Positions 4,565 through 19,673 of a stretch of 54,609 bases of DNA are shown piece by piece. Every line of letters starts with the position of its first letter. The stretch's first letter is position 1. Where the stretch lies: the NCBI GenBank assembly GCA_014240065.1, contig JAAZXR010000030.1:1-54609 (forward strand), written 5' to 3'. This DNA is from Myxococcales bacterium. GTDB lineage: Bacteria > Myxococcota_A > Polyangia > Nannocystales > Nannocystaceae. The position numbers and the translations under genes are program-made. The notes beneath the pieces are model-generated. The model saw only the letters and a program-made list of their open reading frames with translations. It was not told the origin of the DNA and searched no databases.

Positions 4565-5581
4565 TTACTCCACGGTCCAGGTGTGGCCGGTGCGGAGGAG
4601 CGCGTCGACGCTATCAATCTTGGAGTTCGCCTTCGCGTGCTCGACCTGCGCATGCACCCCCCGATCATAGGGGTTCGAGCCGGGCTCGCAGTACAAGACG
4701 CCAAGCGCGATGGGGAAACGAGGTGGTTCGAGGTTCGCGAGCAGCAGCGCCATGGATTTGTTGGTCTCGTCATGAACGAGGACGTCGTCCTCGGTGACGC
4801 CGTGCTCCCCGATGGTCACCACCTCAAGCTCGATGGTCTTCGCGTTAAGTCGCAACCCCTTGTTGTCACCGAAGCGCATGGGCTGGCCATGCTCAAGGCG
4901 CAGCTGCGATTCGTCGGCGACCTCCTTGTCCTTGACGTGGGACCACGCGCCGTCGTTGAACACCGGACAGTTCTGCAGGATCTCGATGAAGCTCGCTCCC
5001 CGGTACTGATGGGCGCGCGTGAAGACAGGGCCGAGATGTTTCGCGTCTGTGTCGATGGTCCGCGCGATAAATCTCCCGCCCGAGCCCAACGCGAACGAAG
5101 CGGGGACGACGGGCGCGTCGACGGAGCCCATGGGGGTCGATGGTGTTCGAAGACCGACCAGAGACGTGGGGGAGTACTGACCTTTCGTGAGCCCGTAGAT
5201 GCGATTATTGAACAGCATGATCTGCAGGTCGACGTTGCGCCGGAGCACGTGCAGCATGTGATTGCCGCCGATGCTGAGCCCGTCACCGTCTCCCGTAATC
5301 ATCCAGATGTCCAACTCTGGGTTGGCGAGCTTGAGCCCGGTCGCGACGGCCGGAGCGCGGCCGTGGATCGTGTGGAACCCGTAGGTGTCCATATAGTAGG
5401 GGAAGCGGCTCGAGCAGCCGATGCCCGAGATGAAGACGGTGTTCTCGCGGGTGACCCCGAGGGCGGGGAGCGTCCGCTGGAGGGTCGCGAGGATGGCGTA
5501 GTCGCCACAACCAGGGCACCAGCGGATGTCCTGGTCCGAGGTGAAGTCTTTGCGAGTGAGCTTTTGCGTGGGCGCGTTCAT
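4565..5581 (-). CDS. korB: 2-oxoacid:ferredoxin oxidoreductase, beta subunit (probably 2-oxoglutarate)
   Basis: This 338-residue protein has the length and sequence of the thiamine-diphosphate-binding beta subunit. It carries the WCPGCGDY motif (Cys22, Cys25) and a further Cys in GIGCSSR, which are expected [4Fe-4S] ligands. The thiamine-diphosphate motif is TGDGDGLSIGGNH with NNRIYGLTKGQYSPTS. With KorA it would decarboxylate 2-oxoglutarate oxidatively to succinyl-CoA and reduce ferredoxin. The start has an AAGAGGA ribosome site and lies 20 bases after korA, so the two form an operon. Assignment to 2-oxoglutarate rather than pyruvate rests on overall resemblance to KorB and is less sure than the family. 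No separate ferredoxin-like delta subunit is present nearby. Confidence 0.93.
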   Translation of the reverse strand: MNAPTQKLTRKDFTSDQDIRWCPGCGDYAILATLQRTLPALGVTRENTVFISGIGCSSRFPYYMDTYGFHTIHGRAPAVATGLKLANPELDIWMITGDGDGLSIGGNHMLHVLRRNVDLQIMLFNNRIYGLTKGQYSPTSLVGLRTPSTPMGSVDAPVVPASFALGSGGRFIARTIDTDAKHLGPVFTRAHQYRGASFIEILQNCPVFNDGAWSHVKDKEVADESQLRLEHGQPMRFGDNKGLRLNAKTIELEVVTIGEHGVTEDDVLVHDETNKSMALLLANLEPPRFPIALGVLYCEPGSNPYDRGVHAQVEHAKANSKIDSVDALLRTGHTWTVE

Positions 5582-5601
5582 GGCTTCGAGTCCTCTTCTT
5601 C

Positions 5602-7470
5602 TCAGCTGTTGGGGAGGTGGTCGTGGATGGCGGAGACGATCTCGGACACCTTGAAAGGCTGTCCGGAGATCTTATTGATGCCCTGGGCGTCGACGAGATA
5701 TTCGCCGCGGAGAATCTTGACCAGCATGCCGTTGTTCATTTCTGGCACGATGACCCGCTTGAAGCTTCGGAGGAGCTCTCCGGTGTTCTTGGGCATCGGG
5801 TTGAGGTGGCGCAGATGGGCGTGGGACACTCGGTGGCCCTCTTTTCGCGCGCGGCGCACGGCTTGGCGAATCGCGCCGTGGGTCGAGCCCCAACCGACGA
5901 TGAGGAGGTCGCCGCTCGCTTCGCCCTCTTCGATCCCGAGGTCCGGGATGTCGTTGGCGATGTTGGCGATCTTCTGCGCCCGCATCTTGGTCATGAGGTG
6001 ATGGTTCTCAGGCTCGTACGAGATATTTCCCGACTCGCGGTCTTTCTCGATGCCCCCGATGCGGTGTTCGAGCCCAGGGGTGCCCGGTTTCGGCCAGATC
6101 CGGCTGAGGGTCGCCTCGTCGCGAATGTAGGGGTGAAAATCTGGAGTGTCGCTGCCCGCGAACTCGACCGGGAAAGGTGTCAAGTCGGCCATGCTCGGGA
6201 TCTTCCAGGGCTCCGCGCCGTTGGCGAGGTAACCGTCGGTCAGCAGCATGACGGGGGTCATGTACTTGGTCGTGAGTCGGACAGCTTCAATGGCCTGAAA
6301 GAAACACTCCCCCGGGGTGCTCGCGGAGATCACGGGGAGCGGCGCGTCACCGTTCCTTCCGTAGATCGCCTGGAACAGATCGGATTGCTCGGTTTTGGTG
6401 GGGAGGCCGGTGCTGGGGCCGCCCCGCTGGATGTCGATGACGACCAAGGGAAGCTCCGTCATGATCGCGAGGCCGATGGCCTCGGCCTTGAGCGCGATGC
6501 CGGGGCCGGAGGTGGTGGTGACGCCGAGGGAGCCGCCGAAGGAGGCGCCGATCGCCGCGCAGACCGCCGCAATTTCATCCTCCGCTTGGAAGGTGACGAC
6601 CCCGAAATTTTTGAGTCGAGACAGCGCGTGCAGCACCGTGGAGGCCGGCGTGATCGGGTAAGAGCCGAGCATAAGCTGCAACTCTGAGAGCTTCGACGCG
6701 GCGACGAGGCCCCACGCGAGCGCCTCGTTGCCGGTGACGTTGCGGTAGGTACCGGGGGACAGGGTCGCCTTGGGGACCTTGTAGATGTGGACGCCGGTGG
6801 GCATCTCGGCGGTCTCGCCGTACGCGTGCCCGGCCTTGAGCGCGGCGATGTTGGAGTCGCGCACGACCTCTTTTTTCGCAAACTTTTGCCCGAGCCAGTT
6901 CTCGGTGTTTTTTGTGTCGCGACCAAACAGCCACAGCACGAGGCCGAGGGTCCACATGTTTTTGGAACGCAGGGCCTCTTTGGTCCCGAGGTCGAAGGGT
7001 TCGACGGCGGCGAGGGTGTGTTTGGAGATGTCGAGTTTTACGAGGCGGTAGGCGGCGAGCGTGTCGTCGTCGAGCGGGTTTTGCTCATAGCCGGCTTTCT
7101 TCAGGTTGCCCTTGGTGAAGGCGCCCTCGTTGACGATGAGCAGGCCCCCGTCCACAAGATCCGCGACGTTGGTCTTCAGCGCCGCGGGGTTCATGGCGAT
7201 CAGCACGTCAGGGGCGTCTCCCGGCGTCATGATGTCGTGGGAGGCGACGTGAATCTGGAATCCGGAGACGCCGTAGGTCGAGCCGGCCGGCGCTCGAATC
7301 TCCGCCGGAAAGTCCGGGAAGGTCGAGAGGTCGTTGCCGACCATGGCGGAGGAGTGGGTGAACTGCGCTCCGGTCAGCTGCATGCCGTCGCCGGAGTCGC
7401 CTGCGAAGCGGATTACGACCGAGTCGATTTCTTCACGTTCGATATTGTTGGGGGAAGCGCCGCCATCCAT
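5602..7470 (-). CDS. korA: 2-oxoacid:ferredoxin oxidoreductase, fused gamma-alpha subunit
   Basis: This protein has 622 residues from the ATG at 7470, which has GAGG eight bases upstream; another ATG at 7476 sits too near that site. The gamma domain comes first (VVIRFAGDSGDGMQLTG, about 12-200). The alpha domain follows with the signature YPITPAS and EDEIAAVCAAIGASFGG, then the pyrimidine-binding and C-terminal domains (LLIVGWGSTHGAIRQAVRRA). This fused order is typical of KorA in aerobic and facultative bacteria. It forms the enzyme with KorB, encoded immediately downstream. Together they duplicate the reaction of SucAB-Lpd at 14-20 kb but pass electrons to ferredoxin. Confidence 0.93.
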   Translation of the reverse strand: MDGGASPNNIEREEIDSVVIRFAGDSGDGMQLTGAQFTHSSAMVGNDLSTFPDFPAEIRAPAGSTYGVSGFQIHVASHDIMTPGDAPDVLIAMNPAALKTNVADLVDGGLLIVNEGAFTKGNLKKAGYEQNPLDDDTLAAYRLVKLDISKHTLAAVEPFDLGTKEALRSKNMWTLGLVLWLFGRDTKNTENWLGQKFAKKEVVRDSNIAALKAGHAYGETAEMPTGVHIYKVPKATLSPGTYRNVTGNEALAWGLVAASKLSELQLMLGSYPITPASTVLHALSRLKNFGVVTFQAEDEIAAVCAAIGASFGGSLGVTTTSGPGIALKAEAIGLAIMTELPLVVIDIQRGGPSTGLPTKTEQSDLFQAIYGRNGDAPLPVISASTPGECFFQAIEAVRLTTKYMTPVMLLTDGYLANGAEPWKIPSMADLTPFPVEFAGSDTPDFHPYIRDEATLSRIWPKPGTPGLEHRIGGIEKDRESGNISYEPENHHLMTKMRAQKIANIANDIPDLGIEEGEASGDLLIVGWGSTHGAIRQAVRRARKEGHRVSHAHLRHLNPMPKNTGELLRSFKRVIVPEMNNGMLVKILRGEYLVDAQGINKISGQPFKVSEIVSAIHDHLPNS

Positions 7471-7860
7471 ATTCATGTCCTCGTAGGCGTGTGTATCGCG
7501 CACCTGCGCGGTGTTTTGCCTGGTTGGAGTTTGGACCCGTTTGGGGCGCTTGTCACGAAAAGCGGGTGGAGGAAGACTCACAAAATCCACCGCTACGAGC
7601 TGAATTTCGCCCAATTTTGTCCGGTCTTGCGGCTGTTGGGAGGGAGATCGCGGGCTGCCTCGCTTCGCGGCATGTTCCGGGACACTGGGGGCGCATGAGA
7701 CCCAGCCGCGCGCGCGCAGTCCCCCATGTGCGTGAAGCGATGGGGGGGCGGGGCGGGGAACAAAGCTTGGCGGGGCACCGCAGCGGCCGCTAGATCCCCC
7801 AGGCGCAAAAACCGAAGCCTCGACCAGGAGACGTAGGTCGAGGTTGCGGTGCCGACGCAG
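7471..7860. other. Intergenic region upstream of korA
   Basis: This 390-bp stretch holds no convincing gene. It contains the terminator of the lipoprotein gene at 7818-7843 and must contain the korA promoter, but no clear -35/-10 pair is visible. ORFs crossing it have the wrong composition or are extensions of korA or the lipoprotein frame. Confidence 0.7.
7811..7843 (-). terminator. Intrinsic terminator of the TTGDP lipoprotein gene
   Basis: On the minus strand a perfect 8-bp stem (CCTCGACC with GGTCGAGG, 7818-7843) has a 10-base loop and is followed by TTCGGTTTTTG. It begins 18 bases after the stop at 7861. Confidence 0.75.
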
Positions 7861-9553: not shown

Positions 9554-10579
9554 ATGTCGAATGAACTTACCGCCCTCGTGGAGCGAGGTATCGAGGCCAT
9601 CAGCAACGATGATTTGGACAGCGCGATGTCGGCGCTCTCGGCAGCGCGCGAGGCTGGAGGAGACGGAGACGGACGCGTTTTACATCTCGCCGGCCTCGTG
9701 GGCTGGATCCAGGGCAACCTCGACGAAGCAGCGTCCAACTTGCTGCAAGCGGTGGAGGCGGCGCCGGCCAACGCGATGATTCAGCTGGACGCCGCCGAGT
9801 TCTTATTTGTCGAGGGGGAGCTCGAAGAGGCGGAGTCGATCTTGCGGGAGTTCTTGGACCAGGCCGGGGTGACCGAGGGTCAAGATGACGCCCGCATGTT
9901 GCTCGCGCAGCTTCGGCTCGAAGACGATGACGCCGAGGAAGCGCTCGAAGTGCTCGACACAGTGGAGACCTCCAAAGACCGCATCGAGTACCTGGTGTCG
10001 CGCGGCGGGGTGTTGTTCGCCCTCGGCCGGCACGATGAGTCCATCGACATCATGTCGAAGGCGACCGACAGTGAGCCCGAAGACGCGGATTTGCACTACC
10101 AGCTCGGGGTGGTCTTGCACGCGTCGGGTCGCGCAGACGAGGCCTGCGCGCGGATGGTGAAGGTGTTGGAGCTTGATGGGGCGCAGCGCGATTCCGGGAG
10201 CGAGCTGCCTGACAGTGACGTGCGACGGGATCTCACGGAGCGGTTCGAGGCGATCCTCGAGGAGGTGCCAGAGCCGATCATGAAGCGCTTGGCGGGCGCG
10301 CCCATCACGGTGGCGACCGCGCCCACGAAGGCGCAGGTGCAAGCGGGGCTCGATCCACGCAGCGCCGTGGCCTTTGTGGGCGACGCGGCCGGGCCGACCG
10401 AGGAGGGCACCCTCGCGCAGATCGTCATCATGAGAGACCTGCTCGTGGACGCCCTCGATGAGCGAGATGAGATGAGCGAAGAAGAGCAGATTGAAGAGAT
10501 CCTCTTCGAGTCGACCCTCGTGGAGCTTCGCCGTTTCTTCGCGATGGAGGAGCTGGTCGTCGCGGGAGTGGGTGGATAA
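9554..10579 (+). CDS. TPR protein with a degenerate MMP37/DUF1025-like zincin domain
   Basis: This gene encodes 341 residues from the ATG at 9554. Residues about 1-205 are TPR-type helix pairs (GRVLHLAGLVGWIQGNLDEA, DLHYQLGVVLHASGRADEA). Residues about 215-341 resemble the small bacterial metallopeptidase-like family with HExxH (RFEAILEEVPEPIMKRL, then a strand-rich part, then EIEEILFESTLVELRRFF-like sequence). Where family members have HEIxHHFG, this protein has VELRRFFA, so both zinc-binding histidines of the HExxH motif are missing. I therefore expect a non-catalytic protein-binding module; the domain match is by eye. It ends one base before the ATG of the LeuA-like gene, so the two are co-translated. 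Confidence 0.75.
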   Translation: MSNELTALVERGIEAISNDDLDSAMSALSAAREAGGDGDGRVLHLAGLVGWIQGNLDEAASNLLQAVEAAPANAMIQLDAAEFLFVEGELEEAESILREFLDQAGVTEGQDDARMLLAQLRLEDDDAEEALEVLDTVETSKDRIEYLVSRGGVLFALGRHDESIDIMSKATDSEPEDADLHYQLGVVLHASGRADEACARMVKVLELDGAQRDSGSELPDSDVRRDLTERFEAILEEVPEPIMKRLAGAPITVATAPTKAQVQAGLDPRSAVAFVGDAAGPTEEGTLAQIVIMRDLLVDALDERDEMSEEEQIEEILFESTLVELRRFFAMEELVVAGVGG

Positions 10580-10580
10580 G

Positions 10581-11831
10581 ATGACCGACGGGAGTACAGA
10601 CAAGCTCATCTACGACTGGAACGAGCAAGAGCGTGAGGGCGCGCTGCTCACGAAGACCCCGCGGTTTGTGGACGAGAGCATCCGCGACGGGATCCAGTCG
10701 CCTTCGGTCCGCGATCCGAGCATCGACCAGAAGATGGAGATCGTGCGCCTCATGGATTCTCTCGGCATTCACGTGGTCAACCTCGGGTTGCCCGGGGCCG
10801 GGAAGCGGGCCCAAGACGACGTCGAGGCGCTGCTGAGGATGATCGTGGAGGAGAAGCTCTCCATTCGCCCGAATTGTGCGGCCCGGACCGTCGCCGCCGA
10901 CATCCAGCCGATTATCGATATTTCTCAGCGCGTGGGGATGCCCATCGAGGTCACAGCGTTCATCGGCTCCAGCCCGATCCGGGCGTACACCGAGAACTGG
11001 GAGACAGCGCGGTTGGTGCGGCATACCCAGGAGGCCATGTCTCTCGTCGTTCGGCACGGATTGCCGGCGTCGTTCGTGACCGAGGACACCACGCGCTCGC
11101 ACCCCGACACGCTCGATCGCTTGTTTCGCACGGCGATTGAAGCGGGAGCGACGCGGCTCGTGTTGTGCGACACCGTGGGCCACGCGACCCCCGATGGGTT
11201 GCGAAATCTCGTGCGGTTCACGCAGAGCGTCTTGTCCTCGATGAAGGTGGAAGACCGGGTCGAGCTCGATTGGCATGGTCACAATGATCGCGGGCTCGCC
11301 CTTCCGCTCGCGATCCTCGCCTTTGAATTGGGGGTTGATCGCGTCCACGGGTGTGCGCTCGGAATCGGGGAGCGCGTGGGGAATACGTCGATGGATCTGT
11401 TGCTGCTGAACCTCGACTTGCTCGGACAACTCGATCCCGAGCGGCATGATTTGTCACGACTTGTGGAGTACGTCTCGAAGGTCTCGGGGTACACCGGCGT
11501 GCCGATCCATCCGAGCTATCCGCTGTCTGGCGAGGATGCCTTTCGTACTGCCACGGGGGTCCACGCGGCGGCGATCATCAAGGCGCAGCGACGCGGAGAT
11601 CGCGAGCTCGCTGATCGAGTCTACTCCTCCGTGCCAGCGCGCCGCTACGGACGGGCGCAGGTGATCGAGGTCGGACACTACAGCGGGCGCTCCAACGTCA
11701 TCTGCTGGTTGTCCGAGCGAGGGATCGAGCCCGACGACGCCACGGTCGACGCGATCTTGGGGGTCGCAAAGACGAGCGATCATACGATGAGCGAAGCTGA
11801 AATCCGCGGCGTCATCGCGGGGCTCGTCTGA
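10581..11831 (+). CDS. LeuA-like acyl-CoA:2-oxoacid Claisen synthase (2-isopropylmalate/homocitrate synthase family)
   Basis: This gene encodes 416 residues from the ATG at 10581, which follows the preceding stop by one base. The TIM-barrel signatures of the HMGL-like/LeuA superfamily are present: an opening RFVDESIRDGIQSPS (family: RDGxQ), the metal-binding WHGHNDRGLA, the GNTSMD glycine-rich loop and TGVHAAAIIKA in the lid region. It is shorter than LeuA and I see no C-terminal leucine-binding regulatory domain, so feedback control by leucine is unlikely. Substrates could be 2-oxoisovalerate, 2-oxoglutarate (homocitrate) or another 2-oxoacid with acetyl-CoA. The sequence alone does not separate these, so no gene symbol is given. 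Confidence 0.85.
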   Translation: MTDGSTDKLIYDWNEQEREGALLTKTPRFVDESIRDGIQSPSVRDPSIDQKMEIVRLMDSLGIHVVNLGLPGAGKRAQDDVEALLRMIVEEKLSIRPNCAARTVAADIQPIIDISQRVGMPIEVTAFIGSSPIRAYTENWETARLVRHTQEAMSLVVRHGLPASFVTEDTTRSHPDTLDRLFRTAIEAGATRLVLCDTVGHATPDGLRNLVRFTQSVLSSMKVEDRVELDWHGHNDRGLALPLAILAFELGVDRVHGCALGIGERVGNTSMDLLLLNLDLLGQLDPERHDLSRLVEYVSKVSGYTGVPIHPSYPLSGEDAFRTATGVHAAAIIKAQRRGDRELADRVYSSVPARRYGRAQVIEVGHYSGRSNVICWLSERGIEPDDATVDAILGVAKTSDHTMSEAEIRGVIAGLV

Positions 11832-11845
11832 CGTGATTTAGGCGC

Positions 11846-13420
11846 CTACCACAGCACCTTCATCGCTTTTCGGCACTCGCGCGCGAGCGCCTCAAACAGC
11901 ACCTCGTCCTCCCAATTGCGGGGGAGCTTCGCCCGTTGGCCCGGGATGTCTCCGGGGACGCGTCTGATCGCGACCTGGAGCGGGAAAATGTCGGATCTCG
12001 ACCACTGCTGCGCGCGGATCTCCGGGGTGGACAGCTCGATCCAACCGACCGACGGATCCTTCCCCCATGTCAAAAATTGGAGCCTCGGTGCGGGGAGGTC
12101 CGGGCGGGTGGTCCCGGGCCATACGACGAGGCCGGGGCGCGCGGTCCCTTCCTTGAGTCGAAACATCGCCGGCATCGCGATGGTGTCGGCTCCGAGGGGA
12201 GTCTGATCACCGAGCGCCGCGTACGGGCGGTCGCGGAGCGTGCCGCGTGGCGCCGTGAGCATGGTGTCGGCGACGTCGCTGAGGATGTCGTCGACCCGCA
12301 GCGTCGAGAGCGGGGGACCATCTATCTTTGTCCTGGTCGGCACAAAGGACGGGGCCTTGGGCTCGGGGGCGTCTTCATGTTCGACGCGCGGGCGAGCGCG
12401 CGTGCGAACGGGCGTCCACTCCATCGACTCGACGCTTCGTTTCCACAGGTGTCCAAGTTGGCCCTGGGCGCGCGGTCCGCCCAACACCAGCGCGGCGCTC
12501 CCGTCTGGTTGTTCGACGAGGCTCATGCACGACGCGCTCTTGTCCAGAGCGTGCTCCGAGGGCGGGTATTGCTCGATGGGAGCGGGCTCGCCGTCGTCCG
12601 TGGGCGGGGCGGCGTAGCAAAATCGCTGCACGAGCCCGTGCGCTCGCAACACGTAGATGAAGTGGGCGTCACCGGCGACCGCGAAGGGGGTCAGGGGGCC
12701 CCCGCTTGGGCGGGGAAACCACGTCTGAGCGATCCGCAGGTCCGGGTGCGTGATGGCGACCGCTCCGTCCCGCGCCGCGAGGACGACGCGACCGTTCGAG
12801 GTCAGCCCGACCCGGTCGATGACCTCCGCGTCTTGGTGGACCGGGCTGGTCTCCTTGATTTTGAGTTGCGCGTATCCAGAGGGATGATGAGGATCGATCA
12901 CCCACGCGTTGGTGCCGCCGTTGGTGAAGATGGCGCGCTCGTCGGCGGTCGCGATGAGAGAGGTCACCTCTCCCTCGGATGCCTTGCGCCGGTGCGACTC
13001 GGCTCGGCCGTCTAGGTTCCACAGCAGCTGTCCGCTCGCGCCCGCCCCGCAGAGCAGGTCGGGTCGCAGCAGGCACACCTTGTCCACAAAGCCGGAGAGT
13101 TTTGAGCCGATCTTGGACAGCTGCTCTCCCCACGAGCTCCCCTCGTGGAGCAGATTTCCGCCGATCCACAGCTGACCAGAGAGGTTCTCGGCGACGCTCG
13201 GGCGGCTCGAGGGGACCGGGATTCTGCGCTGAATCGAGAGATCCTTCCGCTGAATAATGCACAGCTCGTGCGGGAGTACGACCAAGAGACGTTTGAGGTC
13301 CCGGCTGAGGTTGATCTCGAGCGGGCTGTCGTCAAGATCGAGCCCGTCGCGTCGTTGGCTCCCGACCACCGTTCGTCGGGCGCCGACTTTTCTCCGGGTG
13401 GTGGGTGTTCGCCTCGCCAC
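11846..13420 (-). CDS. Uncharacterised protein, possibly beta-propeller
   Basis: This gene encodes 524 residues from a GTG at 13420, with a weak ribosome site. The N-terminus is basic (MARRTPTTRRKVGARRT) and has no signal peptide. The middle has repeated short strand segments with turns (LLVVLPHELCIIQRKDLSIQ, GQLWIGGNLLHEGSSWGE, LTSNGRVVLAARDGAVAITH, AHFIYVLRAHGLVQRFCY), the rhythm expected of a WD40/PQQ-like propeller. The C-terminal 150 residues are Trp- and Pro-rich (FLTWGKDPSVGWIELS) and could form a separate domain. It is convergent with the LeuA-like gene (14-bp gap) and downstream of the 13553 gene on the same strand. Function unknown; coding status is well supported by length and codon use. 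Confidence 0.72.
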   Translation of the reverse strand: MARRTPTTRRKVGARRTVVGSQRRDGLDLDDSPLEINLSRDLKRLLVVLPHELCIIQRKDLSIQRRIPVPSSRPSVAENLSGQLWIGGNLLHEGSSWGEQLSKIGSKLSGFVDKVCLLRPDLLCGAGASGQLLWNLDGRAESHRRKASEGEVTSLIATADERAIFTNGGTNAWVIDPHHPSGYAQLKIKETSPVHQDAEVIDRVGLTSNGRVVLAARDGAVAITHPDLRIAQTWFPRPSGGPLTPFAVAGDAHFIYVLRAHGLVQRFCYAAPPTDDGEPAPIEQYPPSEHALDKSASCMSLVEQPDGSAALVLGGPRAQGQLGHLWKRSVESMEWTPVRTRARPRVEHEDAPEPKAPSFVPTRTKIDGPPLSTLRVDDILSDVADTMLTAPRGTLRDRPYAALGDQTPLGADTIAMPAMFRLKEGTARPGLVVWPGTTRPDLPAPRLQFLTWGKDPSVGWIELSTPEIRAQQWSRSDIFPLQVAIRRVPGDIPGQRAKLPRNWEDEVLFEALARECRKAMKVLW

Positions 13421-14252: not shown

Positions 14253-15656
14253 TCAGCGATGGATCACTCGACCTCCGACGTCGAGTGCGGCCTCTTTGAC
14301 GACCTCCGCCAAGGTGGGGTGGGCGTGGACGCTTCGGGCGATGTCCTCGGCGCTCGCCGAAAATTCGACGGCGACGGCCAGCTCCGCGATGAGGGCGCCA
14401 GCGCGGGGTCCGACAATCTGCGCCCCCAAAATCCGGTCCGTGGTTTCGTGGGCGATGATCTTGACGAGGCCTTCGGTCTCGCCCAAGGCCTTCGCGCGTC
14501 CGTTGGCGGCGAAGGGGAAGGTGCCAGTCTTGATCGGTACGCCGTCTCGTTCGCACTCCGCCGAGGTGCGGCCGAGGTTCGCGACCTCGGGGTGCGTGTA
14601 GATCACGCCCGGAATCGCGGCGTAGTTCACGTGCGGGGCGAGCCCGGTCATCGACTCGACCGCGGCGACGCCCTCCTCTTCAGCTTTGTGGGCCAGCATC
14701 GGGCCGGCGATGACGTCCCCGATGGCCCACACACGTGGGATGTTGGTCTTAAATCCACCGTCGACGCGAATCCGACCGCGCTCGTCAAGCTCGAGCCCGA
14801 CGGTTTCACACCCGAGCCCGTCCGTATACGGGCGCCGTCCGACGGCCACGAGCACCTTGTCGGCGAGGAGCGTCTCCGCCTCGCCGTCGCGCTCCAACGA
14901 CACCTCCACGGCATCCTCGCGGACCGTCGTTCCCGTCACCTTCACCCCGAATTGCATGTCGAGGCCTTGTTTTTTGAAAATCTTCGCGGCGGTCTTTGAG
15001 ACGTCGGGGTCGAGGAAGGGGAGGAAGGTCGGGAGATATTCCAAGATCGTCACCTTCGCGCCGAGCCTCGCCCAGACCGAGCCCATCTCGAGCCCGATGA
15101 CGCCCGCGCCGATGACGACGAGGTGGGCGGGCACCTCGTCAAAGCACAGGGCCTCGGTGCTGGTGACGACCTGCTCGCCGTCCAGCGTGACGCCTGGGAC
15201 GGAGATCGGCGCCGAGCCGGTCGCGATGAGGATATTCTTGGTCTGGAGTGAGGCCGTGACCTCACCCGAGGCGTCGAGGACCTCGACGACGCCCGTCGCC
15301 GCGAGCCGGCCCAAGCCTTGAACTCGTTCGATCTTGTTTTTCTTGAACAAGAAGTCGACGCCGCCCGTGAGTTGTTTGACGATGCCGTCTTTGCGCTTCA
15401 GCATCTTCTTCAAATCGAGCTCCACACCCGACACGTTGACGCCGTGGGTGGAGAGTCCTCGCTTCGCCTCTGCGAATCGCTCGGAGGACTCGAGCAGGGC
15501 CTTGCTCGGGATACAGCCGACGTTGAGACAGGTGCCACCGAGGGTCGCGTCTTTCTCCACGCACGCGGTGCGCAGACCCAGCTGGGCCGCTCGGATCGCC
15601 GCGACGTATCCGCCAGGGCCGCTTCCAATGACAACGAGATCGTAGGGGTCAGCCAT
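14253..15656 (-). CDS. lpd: Dihydrolipoyl dehydrogenase (E3)
   Basis: This 467-residue protein has the family's usual length. The FAD-binding GSGPGG is at 11-16, the redox disulfide GGTCLNVGCIPSK has Cys43 and Cys48, and an NAD-binding glycine motif (VVIGAGVIGLEMGSVW) is in the centre. The C-terminal interface domain carries the active-site pair in HAHPTLAEVVKEAA. It reoxidises the lipoyl groups of SucB and passes electrons to NAD. The SucB stop TAA and the ribosome site GGAGG overlap the junction, with only three bases between the genes, so translation is probably coupled. The gene may also serve other lipoyl complexes. Confidence 0.97.
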   Translation of the reverse strand: MADPYDLVVIGSGPGGYVAAIRAAQLGLRTACVEKDATLGGTCLNVGCIPSKALLESSERFAEAKRGLSTHGVNVSGVELDLKKMLKRKDGIVKQLTGGVDFLFKKNKIERVQGLGRLAATGVVEVLDASGEVTASLQTKNILIATGSAPISVPGVTLDGEQVVTSTEALCFDEVPAHLVVIGAGVIGLEMGSVWARLGAKVTILEYLPTFLPFLDPDVSKTAAKIFKKQGLDMQFGVKVTGTTVREDAVEVSLERDGEAETLLADKVLVAVGRRPYTDGLGCETVGLELDERGRIRVDGGFKTNIPRVWAIGDVIAGPMLAHKAEEEGVAAVESMTGLAPHVNYAAIPGVIYTHPEVANLGRTSAECERDGVPIKTGTFPFAANGRAKALGETEGLVKIIAHETTDRILGAQIVGPRAGALIAELAVAVEFSASAEDIARSVHAHPTLAEVVKEAALDVGGRVIHR

Positions 15657-15659
15657 TTT

Positions 15660-16865
15660 TTAAACCTCCAACATCAGGCGACGAGGGTCTTCGATGGACG
15701 TCTTGATATCGACGAGGAACTGCACCGCCTCGCGACCATCGACAATTCGGTGGTCGTAGGACAGGGCGAGGTACATGATCGGGCGAATCTCCACGTTCCC
15801 GCGGACAGCCACAGGTCGCTCCACGATATTGTGCAGCCCCAGGATCCCGCTCTGCGGCGGGTTAAGGATCGGCGTGGAGAGCATGGAGCCGTAGATCCCT
15901 CCGTTGCTGATGGTGAAGGTGCCCCCGGTGAGGTCCGCGATGGTGAGCTTGTTCTTGGTGGCGAGCCCCGCGAGGCGACCGATCTCACGCTCGATGTCGG
16001 CGAATGAGCGCGCGTCCGCGTCCCGAACGACGGGGACCACGAGGCCCTTGCCTCCTCCAACGGCGACGCCGATGTCGTAGTGATCCTTGTAGATGAGCTC
16101 GTCCCCGTCGATCTCCGCGTTCACAGCGGGGCAGGACTGGAGCGCCTTCACGACGGCTTTCACGAAGAAGGACATGAAGCCCAGCTTGACCCCGTGCTTC
16201 TCGAGGAATTGATCTTTGTACGCTTTGCGGAGGGCCATGACCTCCGACATGTCACACTCGTTAAATGTGGTGAGGATCGCGGCCTCTTGCTGCGCACCCA
16301 CGAGTCGCTCCGCGATTCTCTTGCGCAGCGGGGTCATGCGTACCCGCTCCTCGCGCGCTCCCGCGGTGACGGTGGCGCTCGGCGACGGCGTGGTGGTCGG
16401 CGCAGCGGGCGTGGTCGGCGCGCGCATCACGTCCTCTTTGAGCACGCGGCCGCCGCGGCCAGAACCTTCGACTGTCGCAGGATCTACGCCCCGACGTTGA
16501 GCCTCGGCACGCGCGGCTGGCATCACCGCAGACGCGCCGTTGGAGGCGCGCGGGGCCTCGCTCGGCGCGGTGGCGGCGGGAGCGGTGGCGGCGGGAGCGG
16601 TGGCGGTCGCAGGGGCCGCCGCGTCGGCGTCGATGGTGGCGATCAGGGTGCCCACGTTGACGGTGGCGCCCTCGTCTCCCATCCGCTCGACGAGGACGCC
16701 GGCAGCAGGCGCCGGGACCTCGACTGTGATCTTGTCGGTCTCCAACTCGACGATTGGATCGTCCGCGTTGACGTAGTCGCCGACGCTACGCAGCCACGTC
16801 GCGATGATCGCCTCGGTGATCGACTCTCCGAGCTCTGGAACTTTGACCTGATTTAGTTGGGGCAT
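15660..16865 (-). CDS. sucB: Dihydrolipoyllysine succinyltransferase (E2 of 2-oxoglutarate dehydrogenase)
   Basis: This 401-residue protein has one lipoyl domain (1-77, with the lipoylated Lys45 in ETDKITVEV). An Ala/Pro/Thr linker follows, then a peripheral-subunit-binding domain (about 112-147, [19 protein letters not shown]) and a catalytic core (about 175-401, with [13 protein letters not shown] holding the active-site His). The core sequence is succinyltransferase-like rather than acetyltransferase-like. It transfers the succinyl group from SucA to CoA and is the structural core of the complex. It lies 12 bases after sucA and 3 bases before lpd. AAGGA lies 5 bases upstream of the start. 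Confidence 0.97.
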
Positions 16866-16877
16866 GATGTCCTTGAT

Positions 16878-19673
16878 TTACGGTGCTTGTGTTTGGAACG
16901 CTTCCGACAAGAGCATGGTCCGCTCGAGTTGGTGGGAGTCGGGGGAGCCGGTCGCGGGCGAGGCGCTGCGTTCGCGCCCCGCGTAGCGCAGGGTTCGCGC
17001 TCCCAGGAGTTTGCGGAGTCGCGGCGCGATGAAGCTCCACGGGCCCATATTGGCCGGCTCTTCTTGGACCCACACGAAGTCTGAGGCGCCGCTGTAGCGC
17101 TCGAGCGTCGCCATGATCTCGGCCTTCGCGAACGGGTAAAGCTGCTCCACGCGGATGAGGGCGGTGTCGGTGACGCCGAGCTTGGAGCGCTCTTCACGGA
17201 GGTCGTAGAACACCTTCCCGGACGAGAAGATGACGCGCGTGACCTCTCCCGGAGTGACCTCGTCGTCGCCGATGACCCTCCGAAACTTCTGCTCCGTGAA
17301 ATCTTCGATCGGCGAGAACGAGAAGCGGGCTCTCAAGAGGCTCTTTGGCGTCATGAGCACGAGCGGTTTCCGCCACGCGCCTACGACCTGCCGACGGAGG
17401 GCGTGGAACTCTTGGGCCGGCGTCGTGAGGTTACAGATGACCATGTTGTGCTCCGCGCACAGCTGCAAGAACCGCTCGAGCCGGGCGCTCGAGTGCTCGG
17501 GGCCTTGGCCTTCGTAGCCGTGGGGGAGCATGAGCGCGAGGCCAGAGATTCGATTCCACTTGTCTTCGGAGGACGAGAGGAACTGGTCGATGATGACCTG
17601 CCCGCCGTTCGCAAAATCACCGAACTGCGCCTCCCAGATCACGAGCGCGAAGGGCGAGGCGAGGCTGTAGCCAAACTCGAACCCGAGGACCGCGAACTCG
17701 CTCAGGGGGCTGTTGTAGCAGTGGAACGACGCCTGGTCCTCGTCGAGATGGGACAGCGGCGTGTAGTGATCGCCTCTGTTCGCGTCTACGATCACCGCGT
17801 GCCGATGACTGAACGTCCCGCGCCGGCAGTCTTGGCCGCTCAGTCGCACGGGGTGCCCCTCGACGAGGAGCGAGCCGTAGGCGAGGTGCTCGGCGGCGGC
17901 CCAGTTCACCGGGACCTCGCCGCGGTACATTTTGAGGTGTTCTTGGAGCACTCGCTCCACCTTGCGGTTGACGCTGAGCCCCTCGGGCCGGACCGCCAGC
18001 TTCGTGGCGAGGATCGCGGGGAGGGCGGCGTCGATGGAGGTGTCGGGCGTGTGCTCGGGTTCGTCTCCGCCGCTGTAGTCTTCCCACATCCCGTGCATGG
18101 GCGCGAGCGCTGCGGCGGGAGGTCCGTCTCGACGCACGCGGTCGAGGGCGGCGTTAAACTCCCCGTTGAATTCGTTCTCCATCTCCTGGCACGCCTCGAG
18201 GGTGGTGGTCCCTCGCTCAATGAGGAGCTCTTGGTAGCGATGTCGAACGCTGGAGTGCTCACGGATGAGCGTGTACATCTCGGGCTGCGTGAACGTGGGA
18301 TCATCCCCCTCGTTGTGTCCAAAGCGTCGATAGCAGATGAGATCGATGATGACGTCGCGACGAAATCGTTGCCGGAAATCGACCGCGAGGCGGGCGACGT
18401 ACGCGGCCGCCTCGGGATCATCTCCGTTGACGTGGAACACGGGGACCTGGATCCCCTTGCCGACGTCTGTGCAGTACATCCCGGAGCGTCCGTCGCTGGG
18501 ATTGGTGGTGAATCCGACCTGGTTGTTGAGCACGACACGAATCATGCCGCCGGTGCGGTAGCCGTCGAGCTGTGACAGGTTGAGCGTCTCCGCCACGACC
18601 CCTTGACCAGAGAATGCGGCGTCCCCGTGCAGGGAGACGCCGAGGCTGGCGTCGAAGCCCATCGAGGGTTTCGCGTCTTGCTTCGCGCGGACTCGACCTT
18701 GGATGACCGGAGTGATGGCCTCGAGGTGACTAGGGTTGAAGGCGAGCGCGAGGTAGATGTCTTTCCCGTGGGAGGTGACGTGCTCGCGGTGGTACCCGAG
18801 GTGATATTTAACGTCGCCCGCGCCCAGGAGCTCGTTGGCGTCGAAGGAGCCTTTCTCAAATTCAGAGAACACCTCCGCCGGCGACTTGCCCATCACGTTC
18901 ATCAGCACGTTGAGGCGACCGCGGTGCGCCATCCCGAAGATCACCTCGCCCACGCCTGCGTCGGCGGCGGTGTCGATGAGGCAGACGAGCGTGGTGATGA
19001 CGCTCTCAGCGCCGGCCACCGAGAACCGCTTGGCGCCGAGGAACTTCGAGTGCAAGAATTGATCGACGACGTCGACGTTGACGAGCTTGCGGAGCATGCG
19101 ATGTTGGTCGGCGGGCTCCGGCGTGACCTGGTTCTCGCAGGATTCCATGCGCTGACGCAGCCACTCGCGCTCCTCCGACGCGGGGAGTGACCAGTATTCG
19201 ACGCCGATGTTGCGACAGTAGGTGTTTCGCAACTTCCTCAAGATCTCGCCCAAGGGCGCCGGCGCAGAGAGCAGCCCGCTCGAGTGGAAGTGGCGATCGA
19301 GGTGTGCCTCTCCGAGTCCGAAGTTGGACGGGTCGAGCATCGGCGCTCGCGTGTGCGGAGGCCGGCCGAGAGGATCGATGGTCGCCCCGAGGTGCCCGTG
19401 GATTCGGTAGGCCTCGATGAGATCCTTGACGCGGTTTTGAAGGAGCGTCTGCTCGGAGGACTCGTGCCCTGGGATCGCGGCGGTGGCGCGCGCGTCGTTG
19501 GAGCGGAGCGGCGCCGTGGGTGACGTCGGCGCCGTGGGTGACACGAATCTGGCGCCCGGGTCGAGCACCGGAATCCACTCCGGTGGCACAGACGTTGGGT
19601 CACGTTGATACGCCTCATAGAGGCCTTCGAGGAAAGCCAGATTGTAGACGGAGAGCGCTCGTTCGCGGTCCAT
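16878..19673 (-). CDS. sucA: 2-oxoglutarate dehydrogenase E1
   Basis: This 931-residue protein has the full family length. The order is an N-terminal tail for complex binding (about 8-50, LEGLYEAYQRDPTSVPPEW), a thiamine-diphosphate domain (GMAHRGRLNVL, HGDAAFSGQGVVAETL, NNQVGFTTNP), a pyrimidine domain (FEFGYSLASPFALVIWEAQF) and the C-terminal domain. It decarboxylates 2-oxoglutarate and succinylates the lipoyl arm of SucB, the NAD-linked step of the TCA cycle. It is the first gene of sucA-sucB-lpd. The upstream region (19674-19760) is AT-rich compared with its surroundings and probably holds the promoter. Confidence 0.97.
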   Translation of the reverse strand: MDRERALSVYNLAFLEGLYEAYQRDPTSVPPEWIPVLDPGARFVSPTAPTSPTAPLRSNDARATAAIPGHESSEQTLLQNRVKDLIEAYRIHGHLGATIDPLGRPPHTRAPMLDPSNFGLGEAHLDRHFHSSGLLSAPAPLGEILRKLRNTYCRNIGVEYWSLPASEEREWLRQRMESCENQVTPEPADQHRMLRKLVNVDVVDQFLHSKFLGAKRFSVAGAESVITTLVCLIDTAADAGVGEVIFGMAHRGRLNVLMNVMGKSPAEVFSEFEKGSFDANELLGAGDVKYHLGYHREHVTSHGKDIYLALAFNPSHLEAITPVIQGRVRAKQDAKPSMGFDASLGVSLHGDAAFSGQGVVAETLNLSQLDGYRTGGMIRVVLNNQVGFTTNPSDGRSGMYCTDVGKGIQVPVFHVNGDDPEAAAYVARLAVDFRQRFRRDVIIDLICYRRFGHNEGDDPTFTQPEMYTLIREHSSVRHRYQELLIERGTTTLEACQEMENEFNGEFNAALDRVRRDGPPAAALAPMHGMWEDYSGGDEPEHTPDTSIDAALPAILATKLAVRPEGLSVNRKVERVLQEHLKMYRGEVPVNWAAAEHLAYGSLLVEGHPVRLSGQDCRRGTFSHRHAVIVDANRGDHYTPLSHLDEDQASFHCYNSPLSEFAVLGFEFGYSLASPFALVIWEAQFGDFANGGQVIIDQFLSSSEDKWNRISGLALMLPHGYEGQGPEHSSARLERFLQLCAEHNMVICNLTTPAQEFHALRRQVVGAWRKPLVLMTPKSLLRARFSFSPIEDFTEQKFRRVIGDDEVTPGEVTRVIFSSGKVFYDLREERSKLGVTDTALIRVEQLYPFAKAEIMATLERYSGASDFVWVQEEPANMGPWSFIAPRLRKLLGARTLRYAGRERSASPATGSPDSHQLERTMLLSEAFQTQAP

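Follow-up and report, generated by a model that had tools for sequence, protein, structure and literature searches.

Our analysis identifies a conserved pseudo-M94 TPR adaptor encoded in a two-gene unit with a condensing enzyme, and we propose the following model for its role. The TPR/pseudo-M94 protein and a LeuA-like condensing enzyme would be made together from the two-gene unit, with the first, a cytosolic adaptor, acting as a scaffold or as a regulatory or assembly partner of the synthase, or of its complex, as the putative target. We infer that its dead M94 domain holds a polypeptide without cutting it, perhaps in the old cleft. We assign this model a probability of roughly 0.45. The fold, the ligand loss, conservation, purifying selection and the gene pairing are each established by the comparisons given below, and the protein itself is probably a binding part and not an enzyme.

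The two-gene unit and the TPR array

The window, by which we mean the whole 54,609-nucleotide stretch of DNA analysed, is its source contig at full length, from a 4.7-Mb genome. On its forward strand the gene for the TPR/pseudo-M94 protein occupies 9554..10579 (341 aa plus stop in translation), with a start at 9554 that matches the aligned orthologues, and the gene for the synthase follows at 10581..11831 (416 aa plus stop). An earlier sequence-only reading of this DNA had counted one base between the two genes, and this is correct, with the TAA of the first gene at 10577-10579 and the ATG of the second at 10581. It had also placed a TPR array in front of the C-terminal domain, and such an array, spanning approximately residues 1-211 (9554..10186, +), is readily recovered: TPR_19 matches at E 1.1e-15, further Pfam TPR models also score over their cut-offs, tandem 34-residue helical repeats are present, and the AlphaFold2 model of the full-length protein (mean pLDDT 92.2) has 12 helices in the array. 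With a pI of 4.1 the protein is strongly acidic; inspection by eye shows no signal peptide at its N-terminus and, judged by its sequence, it looks cytosolic.

Genes for a KorAB-like 2-oxoacid:ferredoxin oxidoreductase lie at window 4565-7614 and those for the 2-oxoglutarate dehydrogenase complex (SucA, SucB, Lpd) at 14253-19673; the two sets are less than about 15 kb apart, with the TPR/synthase pair in between. A convergent gene at 11846-13420 (-) encodes a 524-aa protein for which no Pfam family was found, and which recurs at 9 of the 16 loci sampled from Nannocystaceae.

Fold and zinc site of the C-terminal domain

By profile comparison and predicted structure, the C-terminal domain (residues 219-341; 10208..10576, +) is a mini-zincin fold homologous to M94, the MEROPS family that corresponds to DUF1025/PF06262 (PMC3890501). 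Scans of the window's own copy against Pfam and NCBIfam gave no zincin match for this domain, and it is absent from the 11/18 orthologous domains in which PF06262 is detected at E <= 1 (best 2.6e-6); the relationship to DUF1025 is seen only with family profiles and structure. MMP37, named alongside DUF1025 in the sequence-only reading, is probably a different family, and it does not appear in the Pfam and NCBIfam matches listed for the protein. Aligned by hhalign with 11 intact myxobacterial M94 domains, the orthologue profile gives a probability of 98.8 and E 6.4e-17, and an hmmsearch of the profile of 18 orthologous domains against 177635 PDB sequences places 3e11 (Acel_2062) at the top (E 0.0023). 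As a structure search with the whole protein was swamped by TPR proteins and was uninformative on the C-terminal domain, the domain was predicted alone (AlphaFold2, pLDDT 87.0). Its model has 3e11 as the sole Foldseek match in the PDB at E <= 0.001 (3.8e-4, prob 1.00), followed by 2ejq (E 0.019), a structure likewise mentioned in the M94 paper (PMC3890501), and the same order is given by VIA, with Z 8.8, rmsd 3.1 and 96 aligned residues for 3e11 and Z 6.5, rmsd 4.0 and 92 aligned residues for 2ejq. The suggestion of a dead, DUF1025-like zincin domain, made from the sequence alone, is therefore borne out, with an M94 structure first in the fold search. Like Acel_2062 and TTHA0227 (2ejq), the pseudo-M94 domain retains the fold and the order of its elements, including the long terminal helix that is the site of the zinc motif, and it has the GxDPR....FxG region in common with myxobacterial M94 members; it differs in being fused to TPRs and in having VELRRFFAMEE in place of HExxHxxGxxD, without the zinc ligands.

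The loss of the zinc site can be followed residue by residue. VELRRFFA (residues 323-330; 10520..10543, +) stands at the position of HExxHxxG, and hhalign lays VELRRFFAMEE over HETGHFFGLDEE of intact M94, with VELRRFF on HETGHFF. The sequence-only reading had both histidines missing at this position, which holds across the clade: the first zinc histidine is found in none of the 26 Nannocystaceae orthologues (Asp 15, Glu 8, Val 1, Ser 1, Asn 1, the Val being that of the window's own copy) and the second is absent from 24/26, being kept in two and replaced by Arg in 15. The catalytic Glu at position 2 is retained in 23/26 and an acidic residue, Glu or Asp, occupies the third-ligand position in 25/26. 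A sequencing or alignment error as the cause of the missing histidines is ruled out by these 26 orthologues, and by this comparison the loss in the Nannocystaceae clade is real and old. As the ligands of HExxHxxGxxD are missing, the protein is classed as a non-peptidase M94 homologue and not as an M94 peptidase.

It is very improbable that the site has instead been rewired, with Asp or Glu for the first histidine and an acidic third ligand binding another cation and preserving some chemistry. Such a site would account for the Asp or Glu at position 1 in 23/26 orthologues, the retained Glu at position 2 and the acidic third-ligand position. However, the Arg that most often replaces the second histidine suggests a salt bridge, the window's own copy carries Val and not an acidic residue at position 1, and acidic residues are to be expected anyway in a protein of this pI.

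The rest of the domain has been maintained. The GLDPRSAVAFVG loop/strand (GxDPR....FxG; residues 265-276; 10346..10381, +), which is common to intact M94, is retained in 26/26 Nannocystaceae orthologues and in 22/23 of the intact TPR-M94 proteins tested, and the fully invariant positions of the domain include P239, G265, P268, R269, F274, G276 and F328. Furthermore, the domain gives dN/dS values of 0.05-0.13 among six Nannocystis genomes (14 of 15 pairs computable), by which it is evolving under purifying selection. These values, together with the retained loop, argue that the fold is selected for without a zinc site. They also speak against a functionless, decaying peptidase domain retained merely through its fusion to useful TPRs: the catalytic motif is lost and the residues in its place differ between orthologues, as decay would have it, but a constrained domain with an invariant residue set and a confidently predicted fold makes this explanation hardly credible. 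Since the zinc site is gone while the fold and the GxDPR....FxG loop are kept, the domain most likely binds a polypeptide without cleaving it; a non-catalytic binding role for the protein is likely, and the retained region may mark the part of the M94 fold that is relevant to binding.

Orthologues, relatives and pairing with the synthase gene

The Nannocystaceae are predatory soil bacteria. Orthologues (E below 1e-30) were found in 26/29 of their genomes, among them Nannocystis, Plesiocystis, Enhygromyxa and metagenome-assembled genomes (MAGs), and the completeness listed for the three without one (G001, G004, G016) is 54, 71 and 72%. Among 188 sampled Myxococcota genomes, strong matches to the full-length family profile (E below 1e-120) are confined to the four Nannocystaceae in the sample, and the next-best matches have E values of 3e-37 and 2.5e-33. 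A separate M94 paralogue with an intact HExxHxxG occurs in 21/29 Nannocystaceae genomes (L038-L042, L047 and L149-L163 of 50 loci examined), so that peptidase function need not depend on the dead TPR-M94 copy.

Other Myxococcota families contributed 20 TPR-M94 loci, of which 17 are dead. The three intact fusions (L191, L192, L193) share the architecture of TPRs and a C-terminal M94 domain and can be aligned over their full length, but they possess an intact catalytic motif and do not adjoin a synthase gene. The dead ones (L174-L190) form a second clade, in which the motif is absent from 17/17 and the neighbours vary by family; they resemble the Nannocystaceae protein in combining TPRs with an M94-like domain whose zinc ligands are lost, and differ in their separate branch, their other neighbours and the FxG part of the loop, which is unmatched in 17/17. 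In our trees, from which 7 near-identical or redundant sequences of the 26 from Nannocystaceae were left out, the two dead groups stand apart, each with support of 99-100, which would imply two losses of the zinc site; a constraint joining both is not rejected (AU p 0.37) and is compatible with one shared loss.

Within the Nannocystaceae the synthase gene immediately follows the TPR gene, in the same orientation, at 26/26 orthologue loci, mostly starting about 30 bases or less from the stop of the TPR gene (clear exceptions are L012, L022 and L023). Over 16 sampled loci, with L074 and L076 left out and some flanks too short to tell, KorA lies upstream in 14 and the convergent gene on the downstream side is present in 9, and so the pair seems more stable than the genes around it. 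Outside the family this association is lost: no synthase lies near any of the 20 TPR-M94 loci of other families, whose neighbours include a protein kinase and an rRNA-methylase-like gene (named by eye), and among the 80 named synthase-family loci a full-length TPR-M94 gene flanks the synthase at 17 and is missing from the flanks covered at 63, of which at least 5 begin near a contig edge. The claim that the protein is tied to a biosynthetic enzyme, which a survey of homologous neighbourhoods was suggested to check, therefore stands for the Nannocystaceae and falls elsewhere. As dead TPR-M94 proteins have unrelated neighbours, and synthases lack the TPR gene, in other groups, a dedicated tie to the synthase would be lineage-specific and limited to the Nannocystaceae.

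These observations also bear on where the target lies. A serious, if tentative, alternative to our model is that the protein is a non-catalytic adaptor whose target is something other than the synthase, the two genes merely sharing a housekeeping operon; it might, for instance, act on the intact M94 paralogue as a decoy or regulator. The presence of such paralogues alongside it in most Nannocystaceae genomes would fit this explanation, as would the seemingly unrelated neighbours of other dead TPR-M94 proteins, and there are known cases of pseudopeptidases regulating their active relatives (PMC11266112). Against it stands the pairing with the synthase, held at every orthologue locus while other neighbours change. 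We retain the synthase or its complex as the more reasonable partner. An obligate subunit is disfavoured by the restriction of the pairing to one lineage and by the TPR protein diverging much faster than the synthase (about 42-45% identity in closer genera, versus 72-75%), which would be unusual for a tight subunit of that kind. It is unlikely that a peptidase-derived pseudoenzyme has here become a subunit dedicated to the regulation or assembly of a carboxylic-acid-condensing enzyme at the 2-oxoglutarate node. In that case the pseudo-M94 domain would grip a segment belonging either to the synthase or to a neighbouring 2-oxoacid complex, and the TPRs would gather the partners, making a metabolic regulator built from a dead protease.

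The arrangement had been thought undescribed, which is only partly so. TPR-M94 fusions were noted by Trame et al. 2014 in 17 homologues, and 80 of more than 500 M94 homologues were reported there to be without the full motif, in many cases through a change of the third ligand alone (PMC3890501). Our literature search turned up no account of a synthase paired with a dead TPR-M94 protein, and a term search of the text of a 2024 review of inactive metallopeptidase homologues found no mention of M94 (PMC11266112). TPR-M94 fusions and motif loss in M94 being already known, our interpretation is only partly new; what is new is a whole clade in which both histidines are gone, together with selection for its fold and a fixed pairing with a condensing enzyme. 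M94 has solved structures, yet its structural prototype was described in 2014 as a protein of unknown function (PMC3890501). A lineage that retains the fold under selection after loss of the zinc site indicates that an M94 domain can serve without catalysis, and the fixed partner gene provides a concrete target for testing pseudo-M94 function.

The condensing enzyme

The synthase is an HMGL-like, Claisen-condensing enzyme of the DRE-TIM metallolyase type. It has an HMGL-like TIM barrel domain (PF00682, E 8.4e-38, 130.7 bits against a cut-off of 29) and contains RDG, EDTTR, WHGHND (HxHND) and GIGERVGN (GIGER), motifs that we take to have catalytic meaning. It shares this catalytic domain and these motifs with LeuA, NifV/LysS and CimA, but lies far under all of their curated NCBIfam cut-offs (best 182.8 versus 517 bits; 124 versus 598.7 bits for the LeuA model TIGR00973, with the remaining LeuA models similar) and gives no match to the LeuA regulatory domain; the post-HMGL domain HCS_D2 matches weakly, below cut-off. 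Identity is 70-75% in most orthologues.

The genome encodes two LeuA-like paralogues, one HMG-CoA lyase and one more HMGL-like match; beyond the two paralogues the searches of it gave no canonical LeuA. Replacement of citrate synthase by the synthase was considered and dropped, since the genome carries a canonical citrate synthase. A look at the leucine pathway found a fused LeuD/LeuC-like protein and a 3-isopropylmalate-dehydrogenase-like gene, all below curated cut-offs. The former, a 676-aa protein (G000:C109, locus L195:1081-3108, -), resembles a fusion of LeuD with LeuC in which the usual order is swapped, with the large-subunit match at residues 226-671, and is itself under all curated cut-offs. 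In other lineages the synthase has relatives (L086-L091; L105 as an example of 14 loci) that are accompanied by a [2Fe-2S] molybdenum-hydroxylase-type subunit on the 3' side or by a thiolase on the 5' side.
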